Positions 26,441 through 33,734 of a DNA stretch of 64,000 bases are shown piece after piece. The notes under the pieces are model-generated. The model was given only the letters and a program-made list of their open reading frames with translations. It was not told the DNA's origin and did no database searches. Numbering within the stretch: the first letter of the stretch is position 1; each line of letters begins with the position of its first letter. A program made the translations under genes and the position numbers. This DNA is from Thiosocius teredinicola (GTDB taxonomy: Bacteria; Pseudomonadota; Gammaproteobacteria; Chromatiales; Chromatiaceae), in the NCBI RefSeq assembly GCF_002009425.1, contig NZ_CP019936.1, forward strand, positions 1,473,001-1,537,000, given 5' to 3'.

Positions 26441-26868
26441 CCCGCGTGGTGTTCTACGAGAAACCCGGCTGTATCAACAACACGCGGCAAAAGAAGTTGT
26501 TGCGTGGGCTGGGGCACGAACTCATCGAGCGCGACTTGCTGACCGAGATGTGGACGGTGGGCCGTCTGGCCGAGTTTTTCGATGGCATGCCGCTGGCCGA
26601 ATGGTTCAATCCGAGCGCACCGAGCATCAAGTCGGGCTCGATCGATCCGGGCGCGCTGAGCGAGAAGGCCGCGTTGGCGCTGATGGTGAAAGAGCCCTTG
26701 CTGATCCGTCGTCCGTTGATGGACACGCCCTTCGGTCTGTCCGTCGGGTTTGATGACGGCCCGGTGCTGCGTGCGCTGGGCGTGCAACTCGAGCCCGATG
26801 TCGATCTGCAGACCTGTGTGCGAACGGATATCGACCAAGGCTGCATCCCGGATGGTGGTGTCACGTGA
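26437..26868 (+). CDS. nifO: NifO, ArsC/Spx-family nitrogenase-associated protein
   Basis: A 143-residue thioredoxin-fold protein of the ArsC family (VVFYEKPGCINNTRQKKLL with one Cys; IRRPLMDT near the end as in ArsC/Spx). nifO in A. vinelandii lies in the same place between nifB and nifQ and affects molybdenum allocation. The GTG start overlaps the upstream stop and the stop overlaps the next GTG. Redox catalysis is not evident from a single Cys. Confidence 0.87.
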   Translation: MTRVVFYEKPGCINNTRQKKLLRGLGHELIERDLLTEMWTVGRLAEFFDGMPLAEWFNPSAPSIKSGSIDPGALSEKAALALMVKEPLLIRRPLMDTPFGLSVGFDDGPVLRALGVQLEPDVDLQTCVRTDIDQGCIPDGGVT

Positions 26869-28148
26869 GCGATCTTCAGGATGCACTCGATCACAGGCGC
26901 GCCGTGGAGTTCGCGCCTGACGTGTTCTGGGTGGGCGCACTCGATCCGACCTTGCGCACGTTCGATATCATCCTGAAGACCTCCAACGGCACAACATACA
27001 ACTCGTACCTGGTTCGCGGCAGCGAAGGCGTTGCGATCGTCGATACCGTAAAGCAAGAGTTTTCCGACGAGTTCTTTGCGCGCCTCGAATCGGTCGCAAG
27101 CTACGACGAGATCAAGGTTATCGTTCTCAATCACCTTGAGCCCGACCACAGCGGCGCCCTGCCGGAGCTGATGCGGCGTGCACCGAATGCGCGCCTGTAT
27201 ATCTCGACCCGCGCGACCTCGATGCTCAAGGCGCTGCTCAAGCCGAAAGATGAACCGCTCGACTACACGACGGTGACGACGGATGACGTCGTCAGTCTGG
27301 GGGATCGCACGCTGCGATTCCTGCACACCCCGTTTCTGCATTGGCCCGATACGCAATGCACCTATCTCGAAGGCGAGGCAGTACTGTTCTCGGGCGATGT
27401 ATTCGGCTGCCACTACTGTGACTCGCGCCTGTTCAATGACACCGTCGGCGACTTCCGGTTTTCGTTCGATTACTACTATGCGCACATCATGCGTCCCTTC
27501 AAGGATTGGGTGCTCGATGCGCTGGCGTTGATCGAACCGCTCAAGCTCAAGATCATCGCCCCGACACACGGGCCGATATTGCGCGACCGGCCGCGTCGCT
27601 ATGTGGCTCATTACCGCGAATTGTCGCAGTCCAGCCTGGCCGGCCAGATCGGCAACAACGACAAGTCGTTGGCAGTCTTCTACATGAGTTCGTACGGCAA
27701 TACCGCGCGTATGGCCGAGGCGGTTTTCGAGGGTGCCGACGAAATCCCCGGTGTGCGTGTTTCTCTCTACGATCTCGAGGGTGGTGAAACCGAACCCTTT
27801 GTCGACCTGATCGAAGAAGCCGACGCCTTGGCCTTCGGTTCGCCCACGATCAATGGCGATGCGGTCAAACCGGTATGGGACCTGTTGTCGTCGCTCGCCG
27901 TCGTCAGCCTCAAAGGCAAGATGGGTGCGGCCTTCGGCAGCTACGGCTGGAGCGGCGAGGCGGTGCCGATGATCGAAGACCGCATGCGCGGTCTGAAGAT
28001 GCGCGTCCCGCTCAAGGGGCTGCGGGTAAAACTGATCCCAACCGACGAAGAATTGCTCGAGTGTCGTGACTTCGGCCGCTGGCTGGCTTCCGAGCTGGTC
28101 GGCAAGCGTACGCAAAAGGCCGTTATCGATCTGGCGGATCTCGGTTGA
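26865..28148 (+). CDS. Flavodiiron protein (FprA family, A-type flavoprotein)
   Basis: A 427-residue protein: N-terminal metallo-beta-lactamase domain with the diiron ligands (NHLEPDHSGALPEL, HTPFLHWPDT, LFSGDVFGCHYCD, APTHGPI) and a C-terminal flavodoxin domain (about 262-400; FYMSSYGNTARMAEAV). Such proteins reduce O2 or NO to water or N2O with electrons from small redox proteins. GTG start, overlapping nifO by four bases. Its placement in the nifB operon beside two ferredoxins and FeSII points to oxygen removal around nitrogenase (inference). Confidence 0.93.
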   Translation: MSDLQDALDHRRAVEFAPDVFWVGALDPTLRTFDIILKTSNGTTYNSYLVRGSEGVAIVDTVKQEFSDEFFARLESVASYDEIKVIVLNHLEPDHSGALPELMRRAPNARLYISTRATSMLKALLKPKDEPLDYTTVTTDDVVSLGDRTLRFLHTPFLHWPDTQCTYLEGEAVLFSGDVFGCHYCDSRLFNDTVGDFRFSFDYYYAHIMRPFKDWVLDALALIEPLKLKIIAPTHGPILRDRPRRYVAHYRELSQSSLAGQIGNNDKSLAVFYMSSYGNTARMAEAVFEGADEIPGVRVSLYDLEGGETEPFVDLIEEADALAFGSPTINGDAVKPVWDLLSSLAVVSLKGKMGAAFGSYGWSGEAVPMIEDRMRGLKMRVPLKGLRVKLIPTDEELLECRDFGRWLASELVGKRTQKAVIDLADLG

Positions 28149-28192: not shown

Positions 28193-28504
<312 letters not shown>

Positions 28505-28553
28505 TAGACGTTTTTTACGTTTACACGCACTGTAGTTTTTGGAGTAACAAACC

Positions 28554-28904
28554 ATGGCACTTATTACATTCAGCAGCGACGAGTACAAAGACAAGACCGT
28601 GTACGCAGTTGCAGGCAGTCACACCGAAACCGTTCTGAAAATCGCCAAGATGAACAAGATCCCGATCTCGTTCGATTGCGAAGACGGCGAATGCGGCAGC
28701 TGTCTGGTTCACGTTTCCAGTGTTGATGACAAGAACCAGCGGATGGGTGGTCCTTTGACCGCCAAAGAGATCGGCGTTCTGCGCCAGCTCGGCAAGATCA
28801 CCAAGGACGACGTCGACAACATGGCAGTCAACGATCTGCCGACCGAATGGCGTCTGGCCTGCCAGATGATTCCGCGCGACGAAGACATCCTGGTCGAGTA
28901 CTGA
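28554..28904 (+). CDS. Shethna protein II (FeSII)-like [2Fe-2S] protein
   Basis: A 116-residue 2Fe-2S protein. Ligands lie in FDCEDGECGSCLVHV and WRLACQ, with an inserted helical region of about 60 residues between them (LTAKEIGVLRQLGKITKDDV, then NDLPTEWRLACQ-IPRDEDILVEY). That insert and the tail are the features of A. vinelandii FeSII, which binds oxidised nitrogenase and shields it from O2. GGAGTAA precedes the ATG. nifQ begins two bases after its stop. Confidence 0.9.
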   Translation: MALITFSSDEYKDKTVYAVAGSHTETVLKIAKMNKIPISFDCEDGECGSCLVHVSSVDDKNQRMGGPLTAKEIGVLRQLGKITKDDVDNMAVNDLPTEWRLACQMIPRDEDILVEY

Positions 28905-28906
28905 GC

Positions 28907-29479
28907 ATGTCTGCCTGTAGCGACATCAGCTATGACGCGCGCGCCGTGCACGCCGAACTGATGGGGTGTGCCACGGGCCATGGCAATGACCAGGCCCTGG
29001 CATGCATGATCGCAACATGGGCATTTGGCGGAGGGGCCCTGCCGTCTTGGTTGGGCCTTTCTGCGCAGGCATTCGATGAGCTGCTCGCGCTGCATTTTCC
29101 CGGTGCGAGCATCTCACCACCGTCTACGGCGGCCGAGGCCGACGGTGAGCGTAGCCTCGAGTTTGCCGACCTGCAGAAACTGATGGTGGAGAATCGCGCC
29201 AACGAATCCCTGTCGGAAATCTGGATGGCGGATATCGTCGCCAGTGCCTGCATGGGCAGCGATCATCTGTGGCAGGACCTGGGACTGTGGTCGCGGGGTG
29301 ACCTGACGGCGCTGATGCAGCGCAATTTCCCCGCGCTGGCGGCGCGCAACGATCGCGATATGAAGTGGAAGAAGTTCCTCTACAAGCAGTTGTGTGAAAC
29401 CGAAGGGATCTATGTTTGCCGCTCGCCGTCGTGCGAGGTGTGTGCGGACTATGCCAATTGTTTCGGTCCCGAAGAATGA
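28907..29479 (+). CDS. nifQ: NifQ, molybdenum donor for FeMo-cofactor
   Basis: A 190-residue protein ending in the NifQ metal motif C-X4-C-X2-C-X5-C (CRSPSCEVCADYANC). NifQ carries a Mo-Fe-S cluster and passes Mo to NifEN/NifH. The ATG comes two bases after the FeSII stop. Its last 29 bases overlap the start of draG. Confidence 0.94.
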   Translation: MSACSDISYDARAVHAELMGCATGHGNDQALACMIATWAFGGGALPSWLGLSAQAFDELLALHFPGASISPPSTAAEADGERSLEFADLQKLMVENRANESLSEIWMADIVASACMGSDHLWQDLGLWSRGDLTALMQRNFPALAARNDRDMKWKKFLYKQLCETEGIYVCRSPSCEVCADYANCFGPEE

Positions 29480-30404
29480 GGCACAGGGGCTGACGCCTGA
29501 AGCCGACCACATTCGTGACAAGGCTGTCGGCGCCTACCTCGGTCTTGCTATCGGGGATGCGCTGGGCGCAACGGTCGAGTTCATGACACCGCGCGAGATC
29601 GGCGTGCAGTACGGCGTTCACAACGCGATCGTCGGTGGTGGCTGGCTGAGCTTGAGGGCCGGCCAGGTGACCGACGACACCGAGATGAGCCTGGCACTCG
29701 GCGACAGCATCTTGCAGCGCGGCGAGATACTCGCCGAATCGGTCGCGCAGGCCTTCAGCGACTGGATGCGCAGCAAGCCCGTTGACATCGGTCATACCGT
29801 GCGACGGGGAATATCCCGTTTTCGCCGCACCGGTGAATCTGCGGTGCCCTATGATGAGCACGGCGCCGGCAATGGTGCCTGTATGCGCTGCCTGCCGATC
29901 GCGCTGGCGACCTTCGGTGCGCCGGCGTCCGTGGTTGAACAGGCAGTGAAGCGTCAGGCGCATGTTACGCACTGCAACCGCCTGTCCGATGCAGGCACAC
30001 TCGTGGTCGTGCAACTGGTGCAGGATGGCTTGCAGGGCAGGGGGATCGACCAGCTGCAACAACGCATTGACCAGTTCGTTGCCGTCTACCCCGAGTTCGC
30101 GTTTCGCGATCGCAGGAGAACCGAAAACCCCTCCGGCTTTATCGTCGACACCCTGCAGGCGGTGTTTCAGGCGTTGCTGGACACCGAAGATTTCGAATCG
30201 GCGCTGATCGATGTGGTCAATCGAGGTGGTGACGCCGATACGACGGGCGCGATACTTGGGATGATCGCAGGTGCGCTATGGGGTGCGGATCATATTCCGG
30301 GCGCCTGGTTGAAGAAGTTGGCGCCGGCTGTGCGGTTGCGTTGCGCGCAACAGGCGGGGGCGCTGATAGACCTGAGCCGGCCGCAGCCGGTGTGCAACGC
30401 CTAA
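29451..30404 (+). CDS. draG: DraG, ADP-ribosyl-[dinitrogenase reductase] glycohydrolase
   Basis: A 317-residue ADP-ribosylglycohydrolase with dimetal motifs (VTDDTEMSLALGD; RGGDADTTGAILG). It removes ADP-ribose from the NifH Arg put there by DraT, restoring activity. The ATG at 29451 lies inside nifQ; a later start would cut the helix before KAVGAYLGLAIGDALGATVEF. It ends the nifB operon; draT is at 32880-33734 on the other strand. Confidence 0.93.
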   Translation: MPIVSVPKNEAQGLTPEADHIRDKAVGAYLGLAIGDALGATVEFMTPREIGVQYGVHNAIVGGGWLSLRAGQVTDDTEMSLALGDSILQRGEILAESVAQAFSDWMRSKPVDIGHTVRRGISRFRRTGESAVPYDEHGAGNGACMRCLPIALATFGAPASVVEQAVKRQAHVTHCNRLSDAGTLVVVQLVQDGLQGRGIDQLQQRIDQFVAVYPEFAFRDRRRTENPSGFIVDTLQAVFQALLDTEDFESALIDVVNRGGDADTTGAILGMIAGALWGADHIPGAWLKKLAPAVRLRCAQQAGALIDLSRPQPVCNA

Positions 30405-30419
30405 GAACAATTCTGTCGA

Positions 30420-30452
30420 GAGACGATTGCCCCGACGAAAGGCAATCGTCTC
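30420..30452. terminator. Bidirectional terminator hairpin between draG and bfr
   Basis: GAGACGATTGCC-ccgacgaaa-GGCAATCGTCTC is a perfect 12-bp stem between convergent genes. Neither side has a strong U-run. Confidence 0.6.
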
Positions 30453-30477: not shown

Positions 30478-30957
30478 TTATTCCTCGATGCCGCCCATTC
30501 CGGATTGCAGGTAGTTCTGCAGGCCGACCTTGTCGATCAGTTCGATCTGGGTTTCGAGGTAGTCGATGTGGTCTTCGGTATCCGACAGGATATCGGTCAG
30601 GATGTCGCGCGACACGTAGTCGCGTTTCTGTTCGCAGTGTTCGATGGCGTTGACATAGTGCTCGCGACCGCGGCGCTCCAGCTCGAGGTCGCCGCTCAGA
30701 CATTCCGGCACATTCTCGCCGATCAGCAGTTTGCCCAGATCCTGCAGGTTGGGCAGGCCTTCGAGGAGCAGGATACGCTCGATGAGCTTATCCGCATGTT
30801 TCATTTCCTCGATGGACTCTTCGTACTCGTGCTTTCCCAGGGCCTTCAGGCCCCAGTTGTCGTACATCCGCGCGTGCAGGAAATATTGGTTGATGGCCGT
30901 CAGCTCAATCGTCAACGCCTGATTGAGAAGGTCCAATACGCTTTTTTCGCCTTGCAT
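30478..30957 (-). CDS. bfr: Bacterioferritin
   Basis: A 159-residue ferritin-like four-helix protein. Ferroxidase ligands fit Glu in [23 protein letters not shown] (Glu, His and the haem-ligand Met), the Glu of NAIEHCEQ and [13 protein letters not shown]. It stores iron as mineral and may detoxify peroxide. It is the last gene of the RpoN-type operon that starts at 32730 and follows bfd by 49 bases. Confidence 0.95.
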
Positions 30958-31006
30958 GTGGCCGCTCCAGAGAGATTATGGTTTGCGAACTTGTCGAACG
31001 GTCAGT

Positions 31007-31183
31007 TTAGCAAGTCTTGCCGTCGCGGTGCTGACAAACCATGTCACGCATATGGGATGTACAGCGCCCGCAGCAGGTGCGGAATCCCAGGTGCTGGCGC
31101 ACCTCCCGCAAGGTGGTTTTTCCTTCACACAAGGCCTGTTTGACCTGACGGTCGTTCACGGCGTTACACACGCAAACGTACAT
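31007..31183 (-). CDS. bfd: Bacterioferritin-associated ferredoxin Bfd
   Basis: A 58-residue protein starting MYVCVCNAVNDRQVKQALCE and containing FRTCCGRCTSHM: four Cys in the Bfd pattern (C-X-C ... C-X2-C) for one 2Fe-2S cluster. It reduces bacterioferritin to release iron. A GAGGAT site lies upstream of the ATG. Its start lies within the last 20 bases of the hemerythrin gene, so the two are coupled. Confidence 0.93.
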   Translation of the reverse strand: MYVCVCNAVNDRQVKQALCEGKTTLREVRQHLGFRTCCGRCTSHMRDMVCQHRDGKTC

Positions 31184-31592
31184 ACTGCGGATCCTCAGAC
31201 TTCTTCAGATGTGCGGCCAAGGCGCTGTCCATACTGAGCAAATGGCTGCGAAACCATTCGGGAACCTGTTGCTGCAGCCAGGCGCGCGCCATAATTTGTG
31301 ACCCGGCTTGGGCACGCTCGAGAAAGCGTGCGAGTTCCCCCAACACACGCTGGTGCTCGGATGTGTGTTCTGACGTTGCCGGAAAACCGGATTCGTTCAT
31401 CAGTTTTTCTTCGAACGCGAAATGGTCTCGCGTATGGTCGTGCAGCGCTTTCAGACACGTGGCAAACGAGGCCTTGTCGGCATCGCGCGCCTGCGCGTAC
31501 AGCACCAGAAACTCGTCGTGTGTCGAGTCCATTTCGGCGATACCGACACACTGGTCGTCGGTCAATACGGCAAACCCCTGCGGATCAGCCAT
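31164..31592 (-). CDS. Bacteriohemerythrin
   Basis: A 142-residue O2-binding diiron protein. All ligands are visible: His in MDSTHDEFL, HTRDHFAFEE (His-X3-His-X3-Glu), HTSEHQRV (His-X3-His) and WFRSHLLSMD (His-X4-Asp). It has no other domain, so it is likely an O2 carrier or buffer and not a sensor. The ATG at 31592 overlaps the end of the upstream small gene by eight bases. Its place in an RpoN-type operon next to draT suggests O2 handling for nitrogenase (inference). Confidence 0.92.
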   Translation of the reverse strand: MADPQGFAVLTDDQCVGIAEMDSTHDEFLVLYAQARDADKASFATCLKALHDHTRDHFAFEEKLMNESGFPATSEHTSEHQRVLGELARFLERAQAGSQIMARAWLQQQVPEWFRSHLLSMDSALAAHLKKSEDPQYVRLRV

Positions 31593-31854
31593 GTGCCTGT
31601 TCCCGCGCTGCGGGGCCTGTCGCCTGTCCGTTGGCCTGGTCGACCGCGTAGCGGATTTTGGCATTGGCCTTGCGCGCGACATACGCCACGAACTCGTCGT
31701 AGTTCACATAGTCGTGAGCAATGGCGAAGTGGGCTAGTTTTTCGATCAGTTCGCGCGTTGCGTAGACTTCGTCGAGCTGCCTGCCGCAGGTGCGGCAATG
31801 GTCGTCGTCTTCAACGCACGCGGTTTTGCCGAGACATGCGCGAAACAGGGCCAC
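31585..31854 (-). CDS. Small Cys-rich protein (four-Cys N-terminus), function unknown
   Basis: An 89-residue protein with a GTG start four bases after the SIR2-like stop. The N-terminus CLGKTACVEDDDHCRTCGRQ holds four Cys, a possible metal site resembling the DUF1289 pattern; the rest is helical. The C-terminus overlaps the hemerythrin start by eight bases. I cannot name the family with certainty. Confidence 0.7.
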   Translation of the reverse strand: MALFRACLGKTACVEDDDHCRTCGRQLDEVYATRELIEKLAHFAIAHDYVNYDEFVAYVARKANAKIRYAVDQANGQATGPAAREQAHG

Positions 31855-31857
31855 CGT

Positions 31858-32730
31858 TCAGCACCCGACATCCGCAGTGGCGGCAACCGCGACCGGAGAT
31901 GCCTCCGCCAGCAGATCGGTCCAGTCGGCTTCGATCACCTCGATGCCCTTGGTTGCGCAGAAACGGCGCTCCTTGTCGGTCGGCTCGGGGATCAGCGCCC
32001 AGCCAGGCGGGGTGTCGGCCGCGTACACCATGTCCGACAGGACCATGCGCTCGGTGTCGCGCAGCATGCGCATGCCGAGGAACAGGTACTGTTTGCCTTT
32101 GCGGTATTGCTTGAGGAAATCCGGAATGGCGAAGCCGCCCATCAATTCGGTGATGTAGTCGACGAAGTCCGCATCCGAGGCGATATAGGTCGCGTCGGGT
32201 TTGGGGCTGCCGGTCGGCTTGAACAGCACCGGCAACGAGGTGTCGACCTCGGTCTGCTCGATTTCGCTGTACTTCTCGCCATCGTACTGGTCGATGCGGA
32301 AGCGGTAGTCGGTGCCGGCGATACGTGCGATACCGCGAATCAGGATGTGCGGCGTATTGGCATAGCTGTCCTGCAACTGGATATCACGGTTGATGTCGAT
32401 CACGTACGGCGGCAACAGCGTCGCCAGCCAGTCATGGATCGGTGCGCGGGTCCATTCCGTTTCGCCATACGTGGTATCGAGAAAACGTGTGACCGCTTTG
32501 CGACCGCGTTTGAGTTCGACATCCATCGCGGCACGCGGAAACTCGAACATCAGGCGCGGGGCCATCGGCTTACCGCCGTTCATGGCGAGAATCAGGCTGT
32601 CGCTGTCGGCCGGAATGGCGCTGCCGTCAGCTTTGCTGACCACGCCGGTCAACACGCCCGGTCCGAGGTAGGGGACGATCTTGCCGCTCTTGATGCCCTC
32701 GATGAGGTCGGATAGCTGAGTTGAAGCCAC
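31858..32730 (-). CDS. SIR2-like (NAD-binding fold) protein, probably lacking the catalytic His
   Basis: A 290-residue protein with the SIR2-like order of motifs: KIVPYLGPGVL (glycine loop, residues about 17-27), VIDINRD (the Asn position, 114), LFKPTGSPKPD (about 169-179, where SIR2 proteins normally have K-hydrophobic-H-G-S) and YLFLGMRMLRD (about 215-225). The expected catalytic His reads Thr, so NAD hydrolysis or deacylation is doubtful. GTG start at 32730 with GAGAGAAA upstream; longer readings to 32805 cross the promoter. First gene of the operon, next to draT, another NAD-using protein. Confidence 0.72.
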   Translation of the reverse strand: MASTQLSDLIEGIKSGKIVPYLGPGVLTGVVSKADGSAIPADSDSLILAMNGGKPMAPRLMFEFPRAAMDVELKRGRKAVTRFLDTTYGETEWTRAPIHDWLATLLPPYVIDINRDIQLQDSYANTPHILIRGIARIAGTDYRFRIDQYDGEKYSEIEQTEVDTSLPVLFKPTGSPKPDATYIASDADFVDYITELMGGFAIPDFLKQYRKGKQYLFLGMRMLRDTERMVLSDMVYAADTPPGWALIPEPTDKERRFCATKGIEVIEADWTDLLAEASPVAVAATADVGC

Positions 32731-32776
32731 GTTTGTTTCTCTCAGTTGATTGCAGTAATGCTTTGCGTTGTGCTTC

Positions 32777-32792
32777 TGCAAAACATGGGCCA
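32777..32792 (-). promoter_or_regulatory. RpoN (-24/-12) promoter of the SIR2-hemerythrin-bfr operon
   Basis: Read on the minus strand: TGGCCCATGTTTTGCA, with GG and GC twelve bases apart, -24 TGGCCC (consensus TGGCAC) and a perfect -12 TTGCA. It lies 46 bases before the GTG start. Confidence 0.7.
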
Positions 32793-32843
32793 TCACAAAA
32801 AACAAAGTAGCCGTAGGGGTTTAGTGACGGTGCGCAAAAGAAT

Positions 32844-32859
32844 TGTAGGTAATCCGACA
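32844..32859. promoter_or_regulatory. NifA upstream activator sequence of the SIR2-hemerythrin-bfr operon
   Basis: TGT-aggtaatccg-ACA is an exact TGT-N10-ACA site, about 52 bases upstream of the -24 element and just past the draT stop codon. Confidence 0.65.
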
Positions 32860-32879: not shown

Positions 32880-33734
32880 CTACAAACGCTGCAAGCTCAC
32901 CTGGTAAACGCCGCCGATAACGAGGTGCTCGTCTTCGCCCTGCAATTGACCGGACAACAGGCTGGGGAAGAACATCAGTTTGGCGCACGGAACATCGGCT
33001 GCGACGATGCAGTCGCCAAACTCGCCGGCGCGCTCGGCGCTGCTGGCGAAGGAGTTGAGATTGTTCAGCAGCAAAACCTGCCGGTGTGCGCCGGGTGCAC
33101 TCAACAACTCGTACTCGCTGATCTGATTGGTGCCGCGGTACAGGCGCAACAAAGCCGTGCGCGGATGCGTTCTGCGCAGTTCGTACTGGCAGTAGGTATA
33201 TAAAAGGTCGAGTTGTGCCTCCAGGGCATTGGTGTTGTGCAGGCCGATTGCGCGTTCGATGCAGTACTGGTGGTATCGATTGTCGGAGAAGCTACGCAGC
33301 GGACCTCGGTGGGCGCGCGGCGACAAACCGAAACGTGATTCCACCCAACCTTTCATCACCGCACCTTCACGGCTGTTGCTATCGAACAACCAGCCGCGCA
33401 ACAACCGCAGATAATCCGCTTTCGGCCGGCCGGGATGCCGGCTCGCTGCGTCGTATCCGGCTTCATCCGGATGGTTGAGCTGAAAGATCGCCGCCATATG
33501 CGTGCGGAACAAGGCCTGACGTTGGGCGACATCGTCAATCGCGTCGAGCTGTGAGAACAATCCGGCATGCAATGCGGAGACGCCGTCGAGTTGGATGTCG
33601 CGCGGGTGCGCTTGAAACGCCAGGCTGCCGAGTATTCGCGTCGGCACGTTGCATCTATTGAAGCTGAGACCGGCATTGCGCGGCAATGCGACGTCGGCGC
33701 TGCTGTCGATTGTGTGTGTTTTGTTGTTATCCAT
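32880..33734 (-). CDS. draT: DraT, NAD-dinitrogenase reductase ADP-ribosyltransferase
   Basis: A 284-residue protein with the DraT family core (FNRCNVPTRILGSLAFQ; LRLLRGWLFDSNSREG; RHPGRPKADY; CQYELRR; LYRGTNQISEYELL). It inactivates NifH by ADP-ribosylating a specific Arg after darkness, ammonium or energy loss. The target Arg is intact in NifH ([10 protein letters not shown]). It is divergent from nifH; its start codon lies inside the NifA site at 33722-33737. I see no RpoN promoter for it. Confidence 0.93.
   Translation of the reverse strand: MDNNKTHTIDSSADVALPRNAGLSFNRCNVPTRILGSLAFQAHPRDIQLDGVSALHAGLFSQLDAIDDVAQRQALFRTHMAAIFQLNHPDEAGYDAASRHPGRPKADYLRLLRGWLFDSNSREGAVMKGWVESRFGLSPRAHRGPLRSFSDNRYHQYCIERAIGLHNTNALEAQLDLLYTYCQYELRRTHPRTALLRLYRGTNQISEYELLSAPGAHRQVLLLNNLNSFASSAERAGEFGDCIVAADVPCAKLMFFPSLLSGQLQGEDEHLVIGGVYQVSLQRL

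Follow-up and report, generated by a model that had tools for sequence, protein, structure and literature searches.

The window analysed here is a stretch of 64,000 nucleotides from Thiosocius teredinicola (NCBI RefSeq assembly GCF_002009425.1, contig NZ_CP019936.1, forward-strand positions 1,473,001 to 1,537,000), a genome assembled as a single 4.79-Mb contig. Five closely packed open reading frames (ORFs) at 30478–32730, all on the minus strand, lie between draT and draG of its nif cluster. We interpret them as what is probably an auxiliary operon of the NifA/RpoN type centred on pnfA, a gene described in Pseudomonas stutzeri A1501, which would sustain nitrogenase in respiring cells and to which O2-binding and iron-handling genes have been added. 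The conserved part of the operon is the SIR2-like (pnfA-type) gene, called the core gene below, and the other four genes are optional. An original prediction made from the sequence alone had proposed these five ORFs and two promoter elements, and all of them were recovered at the same coordinates. The operon and its control elements, in window coordinates, are as follows.

31858..32730, minus strand: probable pnfA orthologue, a SIR2-like protein of 290 aa with a GTG start (ORF, PF13289, predicted fold, context)
31585..31854, minus strand: 4-Cys small protein of 89 aa, C-x5-C-x6-C-x2-C (ORF, cysteine conservation)
31164..31592, minus strand: hemerythrin, 142 aa (PF01814 and TIGR02481, above cut-off)
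31007..31183, minus strand: bacterioferritin-associated ferredoxin (Bfd), 58 aa (PF04324)
30478..30957, minus strand: bacterioferritin (Bfr), 159 aa, an extra genomic copy (TIGR00754)
32777..32792, minus strand: -24/-12 (sigma-54) promoter, TGGCCCATGTTTTGCA (pattern match, with an element at the same place in 73 of 80 upstream regions)
32844..32859, minus strand: NifA-type upstream activator site TGT-N10-ACA (pattern match; 70 of 80 upstream regions have one in the corresponding stretch)

Gene spacing is operon-like: three bases separate the first two genes, the second and third overlap by 8 bases, the third and fourth overlap by 20, and 49 bases lie 5' of bfr. To place the core gene among its relatives, we scanned a single genome from each species (97 relatives found, best 80 kept). 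Upstream regions were taken from 79 of these 80 loci plus the window; locus L010, with an ORF that runs off its contig, was omitted. Promoter elements were scored as GG-N8-TTGC 40–130 bases 5' of the start, TGT-N10-ACA 70–260 bases 5' of it, and a spacing of 40–160 bases between the two. Both elements together occur in 67 of the 80 regions, and 200 shuffles of the regions gave means of 3.0 for the -24/-12 element, 3.0 for TGT-N10-ACA and 0.06 for the pair (maximum 1). The 80 loci are related and do not amount to 80 independent trials, so the shuffles overstate independence. Within the window, neither element is enriched on its own (10 TGT-N10-ACA sites found versus 11.3 expected; 18 -24/-12 elements with at most two mismatches versus 14.7 expected, with 20 of 100 shuffles reaching 18). 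Pairs at nif-like spacing are enriched, with six found against a shuffle mean of 1.03 and a maximum of 5 in 100 shuffles, and the operon's own pair is one of the six. The other five, all on the plus strand, lie at or upstream of nifL (20863), nifH (33836), nifE (41513), nifU (49819) and nifV (52523); the pair at nifL includes a weak element. By its sequence sites, the window gene carries the NifA/sigma-54 promoter of the pnfA family. Judged from these sites and from the published NifA/RpoN dependence of its probable orthologue, nif control of the core gene is well supported.

The published gene, pnfA (PST1325), is divergent from nifHDK, preceded by -24/-12 and TGT-N10-ACA elements, and reported to depend on NifA and RpoN (PMC2820453). 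Its locus tag is labelled a SIR2 family protein elsewhere (PMC11332353). The window gene shares the linkage to nifHDK, the divergent orientation, both promoter elements and the SIR2 annotation, and the sizes are close (31.7 kDa for PnfA, 290 aa for the window protein). The authors name a homologue in D. aromatica (PMC2820453), and our set includes a metagenome-assembled genome labelled with that species (L048). From context, size, annotation and this homologue, the window gene is most likely the orthologue of pnfA. The loci differ in that here draT intervenes and four more operon genes follow. PnfA was described as restricted to diazotrophs and was compared there with UspA and ETF-alpha rather than sirtuins (PMC2820453). 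A non-polar pnfA mutant is reported to have 23% nitrogenase activity at 0.5% O2, with unchanged nifH transcription; its activity in the absence of O2 is wild-type-like, and fixation supported by nitrate is lost (PMC2820453).

Distribution also ties the core gene to nitrogen fixation. The window protein is 57–72% identical to 49 aligned relatives and is similar over its whole length to nif-linked proteins encoded beside nifHDK. We found nifH in 43 of the 80 kept loci and draT in 30, many loci being cut by contig ends. Where nifH is present it lies divergent and upstream of the core gene in 41 of 43 loci; one of the remaining two has nifH on the same strand (L073), and the other (L010) was left uncounted with its incomplete ORF. 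Among 369 sampled Gammaproteobacteria, nifH scored above the cut-off in 31 and was partial in two (G079 and G268). The core family occurs in 28 of the 369, all of them among these 33 genomes (Fisher P = 2.7e-37, uncorrected for kinship). Nine of the 28 matches are weak (66–90 bits) and belong to a second clade. In a phylum-wide sample of 398 genomes the family was found in 17, of which 14 have nifH above the cut-off and one (G514) has nifD. The core family is thus common in Gammaproteobacteria and not general among diazotrophs. Two same-genus genomes (G407 and G475) lack the core gene.

The second clade is 24–27% identical to the window protein (seven aligned sequences), and its gene stands last behind nifB-nifZ-nifT. 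A SIR2 family protein of R. etli p42d matches the core-family profile. Like the window gene, this protein, msi351 of M. loti and Rcc03262 of R. capsulatus are sirtuin-like and belong to a nif regulon or cluster. Judged from annotation and position, msi351 seems to belong to the second clade, and Rcc03262 would be placed there on the same grounds. Rcc03262 is reported as undetected in a nifA mutant (PMC6925177), ZMO1821 of Zymomonas as raised under N2 fixation and a proposed deacetylase (PMC8600466, PMC8594446), and a sirtuin-like nif gene of Rhodovulum is also in print (PMC9412634). A search of the open-access literature found no work that connects these sirtuin-like nif genes with one another or with the condition of their active site.

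The window protein matches SIR2_2 (PF13289; E 9.6e-8) over residues 152–266, and PF02146, the classical sirtuin family, gives no match at E values up to 1. An AlphaFold2 model built on 50 family sequences (pLDDT 91.3, pTM 0.89) has as its best solved Foldseek matches the SIR2 domains of DSR2 (TM ~0.6 over ~300 columns, ~16% identity). The protein is therefore predicted to have a SIR2 fold, closest to that of the defence-sirtuin NADases. It is unlike DSR2 in its low identity, its missing catalytic His, its lack of defence domains and its nif-type promoter. When the family profile was searched against the sequences of solved structures, only chance-level matches came back.

We take the HG and T-N-x-D motifs of sirtuins to be catalytic. 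The window protein keeps N114, which aligns with the Asn of T-N-x-D in three SIR2_2 proteins, and has T173 in place of the catalytic His. Position 173 was recognized as the place of the HG-motif His from five distinct family members with P-H-G exactly at 173–174, and from [KR]-x-H-G in the SIR2_2 protein L146 versus K-P-x-G in the window protein; the SIR2_2 alignment is unreliable here, as it pairs K171 with the His of L145 and L147 and misses the L146 motif. Active sites were counted in 149 distinct sequences (out of 161 in the set). Residues at 114 and 173 were N+M in 107, N+L in 20, N+T in three, W+L in nine, W+H in five, W+Y in two, W+W in two and W+T in one. Position 173 is therefore Met, Leu or Thr wherever N114 is kept, and each of the five sequences that keep the His has Trp at the Asn place. 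Second-clade members with this sirtuin-type His and a Trp replacing the Asn are L160, L161, L163, L164, L165 and L166. Because none of the 149 sequences has both Asn and His, classical sirtuin deacetylase or NADase chemistry appears unlikely, and an active enzyme of either kind was disfavoured as a candidate. The broken pair leaves nucleotide binding possible. The label SIR2-like in the original prediction thus holds for the fold, the catalytic pair being broken.

The survey of accessory genes covered 69 regions extending 2.5 kb or more 3' of the core gene (the window and 68 of 79 loci; shorter regions were dropped). Hemerythrin is present in 18, the 4-Cys gene in nine, Bfd with Bfr in three and a 185-aa family in seven, and 46 have none of these. 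All five operon genes occur together in two regions, the window and L002, and L019 has the core gene with Bfd-Bfr alone of the set. The accessory genes are therefore optional around the core gene, and a conserved five-gene module was rejected. L002 narrowly supplies the complete set in a second diazotroph, whose absence would have counted against the original prediction. In the taxonomic family of the window, 33 neighbourhoods (of 35 positives besides the window, two fragmented ones being left out, and some genomes shared with the first set) gave hemerythrin in 10, the 4-Cys gene in five and Bfd-Bfr in none by single-query tblastn, a less sensitive search. A member of the same genus, L112, has draT, the core gene, the 4-Cys gene and hemerythrin, and lacks Bfd-Bfr. 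The 185-aa family has no Pfam match and lies between the core gene and hemerythrin at L080:8847-9404 and in six other loci. Ten neighbour proteins of relatives were scanned against Pfam; four gave AlaDH, AAA, MFS and a sub-threshold CbiA, and the rest one weak match or none.

Among the accessory proteins, the 4-Cys protein has no family match above cut-off (best Pfam DUF1289, 15.3 bits versus a cut-off of 27). Its C7, C13, C20 and C23 are invariant in nine sequences, and its AlphaFold2 model (pLDDT 83) has two helices and no confident match among PDB structures. Hemerythrin scores 73.3 bits with the general domain model TIGR02481 (cut-off 51.75) and falls under the NCBIfam bacteriohemerythrin cut-off (NF033749, 67.8 bits versus 84); it matches DcrH-Hr and bacteriohemerythrin PDB chains. 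Residues H25, H57, E61, H76, H80, H117 and D122, which we take to be the di-iron ligands, are invariant in all 16 aligned sequences. Bfd scores 39.4 bits with PF04324 (cut-off 26) and matches PDB 4e6k chain G (E 4.8e-10). Bfr matches TIGR00754 (E 7e-72, 240.6 bits versus a cut-off of 125.55). Five of its six presumed ferroxidase ligands (E18, E51, H54, E94, E127 and H130) are present, position 127 being Thr by simple count, as it is at the aligned position of the solved chain 5zur. The pair belongs to the same Bfd and Bfr sequence families as that of 4e6k and differs from it as an extra copy inside a nif-type operon. Two more bfr genes (chromosome 710090–710557 and 710563–711033) adjoin a Bfd-like gene and encode proteins to which the nif-cluster Bfr is 58% and 50% identical, making the operon bfr-bfd a second set in the genome. 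A diatom symbiont nif cluster is also drawn with a hemerythrin gene (PMC11208148).

The operon is flanked by the two genes of nitrogenase ADP-ribosylation and, on its downstream side, by a hairpin.

32880..33734, minus strand: draT, the upstream neighbour outside the operon (PF07357, E 1.2e-97)
about 29448..30404, plus strand: draG, the convergent downstream neighbour, start approximate (TIGR02662, E 3.6e-117)
30419..30452, no strand assigned: hairpin between the convergent bfr and draG, with a ~12-base stem and no T tail (read from the sequence)

That draT adjoins the operon agrees with the original prediction, from which draG on the other side was absent. The hairpin is a possible end of the operon; a scan for T-tail terminators does not report it. 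Above family cut-offs, the window contains rnfC, rnfD, nifL, nifA, nifB, nifK, nifX, nifE, nifN, nifU, nifS, nifV and nifH. Our labels for nifD, nifQ, two ferredoxins and an FprA-type flavodiiron protein are putative, assigned by reading the ORFs. The FprA-like ORF (26865–28148, plus strand) scores under the cut-off with NF008887 (279 bits) and is followed by the two ferredoxin-like genes (28193–28904). FprA-like matches occur near the core gene in 20 of the 80 relatives.

In the proposed mechanism, PnfA would be a SIR2-fold (DSR2-like) protein without the sirtuin catalytic pair, most likely binding a nucleotide or a partner and not acting as a classical deacetylase. Acting after transcription, it would maintain nitrogenase activity during respiration of O2 or nitrate. 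In this lineage hemerythrin would bind O2 and possibly NO, and the dedicated Bfr-Bfd pair could serve as a store from which iron is released to nitrogenase clusters. The published defect appears when the cell respires, with O2 or with nitrate, and so is compatible with protection against O2 and NO as well as with a coupling between respiration and nitrogenase. Nitrogenase protection is plausible, and hemerythrin, Bfr-Bfd and the nearby FprA-like gene, all of them optional, lean toward protection and iron supply in this lineage. We infer the orthology with PST1325, the binding of a ligand, and a shared role for the five genes. Of the nif-controlled protection and iron-buffering module originally predicted, nif control stands (from the sites and PMC2820453) and support of nitrogenase fits the reported pnfA mutant; conservation of the five genes as a module does not (2 of 69 regions).

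Several observations weigh against this interpretation. The link to pnfA was drawn only from the described features of PST1325, and the P. stutzeri pnfA mutant is reported to grow without fixed nitrogen (PMC2820453). In M. loti, msi351 is the last gene of a NifA operon, and its mutant is reported as fully effective with no symbiotic phenotype (PMC3538637). Two of the 17 family-positive genomes of the phylum sample, G537 and G715, have neither NifH nor NifD above the cut-off; their only match to the nifD model, at ~310 bits, equals the score of the window nifE on the same model. Conversely, 24 of the 38 nifH-positive genomes in that sample lack the core family. Most relatives lack hemerythrin and Bfd-Bfr; therefore, a joint role of the operon genes is not general. 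The presence of ccoN (matches to E 1e-60) does not split the nif-positive genomes, being found in 24 of 28 with the family and four of five without it. Finally, all 18 sequences from both clades share an invariant H99, which leaves room for another active residue; H99 may serve as a substitute in catalysis.

Two other accounts keep PnfA in nitrogen fixation. It is possible, though we would not expect it, that PnfA assists the supply of reductant or energy to nitrogenase whenever the cell has an electron acceptor, hemerythrin and Bfr being incidental. The pnfA mutant is reported to miss the extra activity given by O2 or nitrate while its basal anaerobic activity is wild-type-like, its authors also propose electron transfer (PMC2820453), and the window also contains rnfC and rnfD. 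However, family searches gave no electron-carrying motif in PnfA, the lack of a ccoN association argues against such a coupling, and nitrate respiration could yield NO, which is consistent with protection. It is rather doubtful that PnfA serves, in the manner of NifZ or NifT, in the maturation or assembly of nitrogenase and becomes more necessary once clusters suffer damage. The first clade adjoins nifHDK, the second stands behind nifB-nifZ-nifT in R. etli with the sirtuin-like genes of M. loti and R. capsulatus placed alike, and the unchanged nifH transcription of the pnfA mutant (PMC2820453) would suit a factor of this kind; the wild-type-like activity of that mutant without O2 (PMC2820453) and the dispensability of the M. 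loti gene (PMC3538637) would not.

Enzymatic explanations fare worse. An NAD-dependent deacetylase acting on nitrogenase was proposed for ZMO1821 from annotation and induction (PMC8600466). The invariant H99 could be a replacement residue, and the assignment of the His to position 173 rests on motifs, since the SIR2_2 alignment does not place a His there. We nevertheless regard this activity as improbable, given Met, Leu or Thr at 173 where N114 is kept, Trp at 114 in the few His-bearing sequences, and no PF02146 match. More improbable still is an NAD-handling partner of DraT and DraG in NifH ADP-ribosylation, a link that the position of an NAD-fold protein beside draT might suggest. That position is consistent: draT is upstream on the same strand as the core gene in all 30 loci with draT, and nifH lies beyond draT in all 26 loci where both were found and counted. 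Presence of the core family does not follow that of draT, however, the family being in 13 of 17 draT-positive and 15 of 16 draT-less nif-positive gammaproteobacterial genomes (Fisher P = 0.34). A1501, in which DraT and DraG are reported as not found, needs pnfA for full activity (PMC2820453). The link to DraT and DraG was disfavoured. We give almost no credence to the idea that the nif cluster simply harbours a defence gene for an NADase. The closest solved fold is that of the defence sirtuin DSR2, but a PADLOC search gave no match up to E 1, the catalytic pair is broken, the promoter is NifA-type, and the gene occurs only in nif-positive genomes of the gammaproteobacterial sample; it too was disfavoured.

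Auxiliary support of nitrogenase in respiring cells, the interpretation we prefer, concerns a gene of 28 of the 33 sampled nif-positive Gammaproteobacteria, with a strong published effect on nitrogenase in one of them. In separate papers this gene has been called hypothetical, a likely deacetylase, or akin to electron-transfer proteins. We tentatively suggest that PnfA, msi351, Rcc03262 and ZMO1821 belong together in a nif-linked pseudo-sirtuin family, two branches of which were disabled differently, one by loss of the His and the other by loss of the Asn. Their ligand might be NAD(H) or a similar nucleotide, and they might gate nitrogenase according to respiratory state, joined in some lineages in an operon with hemerythrin and a Bfr-Bfd iron bank. 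A single SIR2-fold family with a broken active site would make clear predictions, namely no deacetylation and possible nucleotide binding, and may aid in moving nitrogen fixation into respiring hosts.

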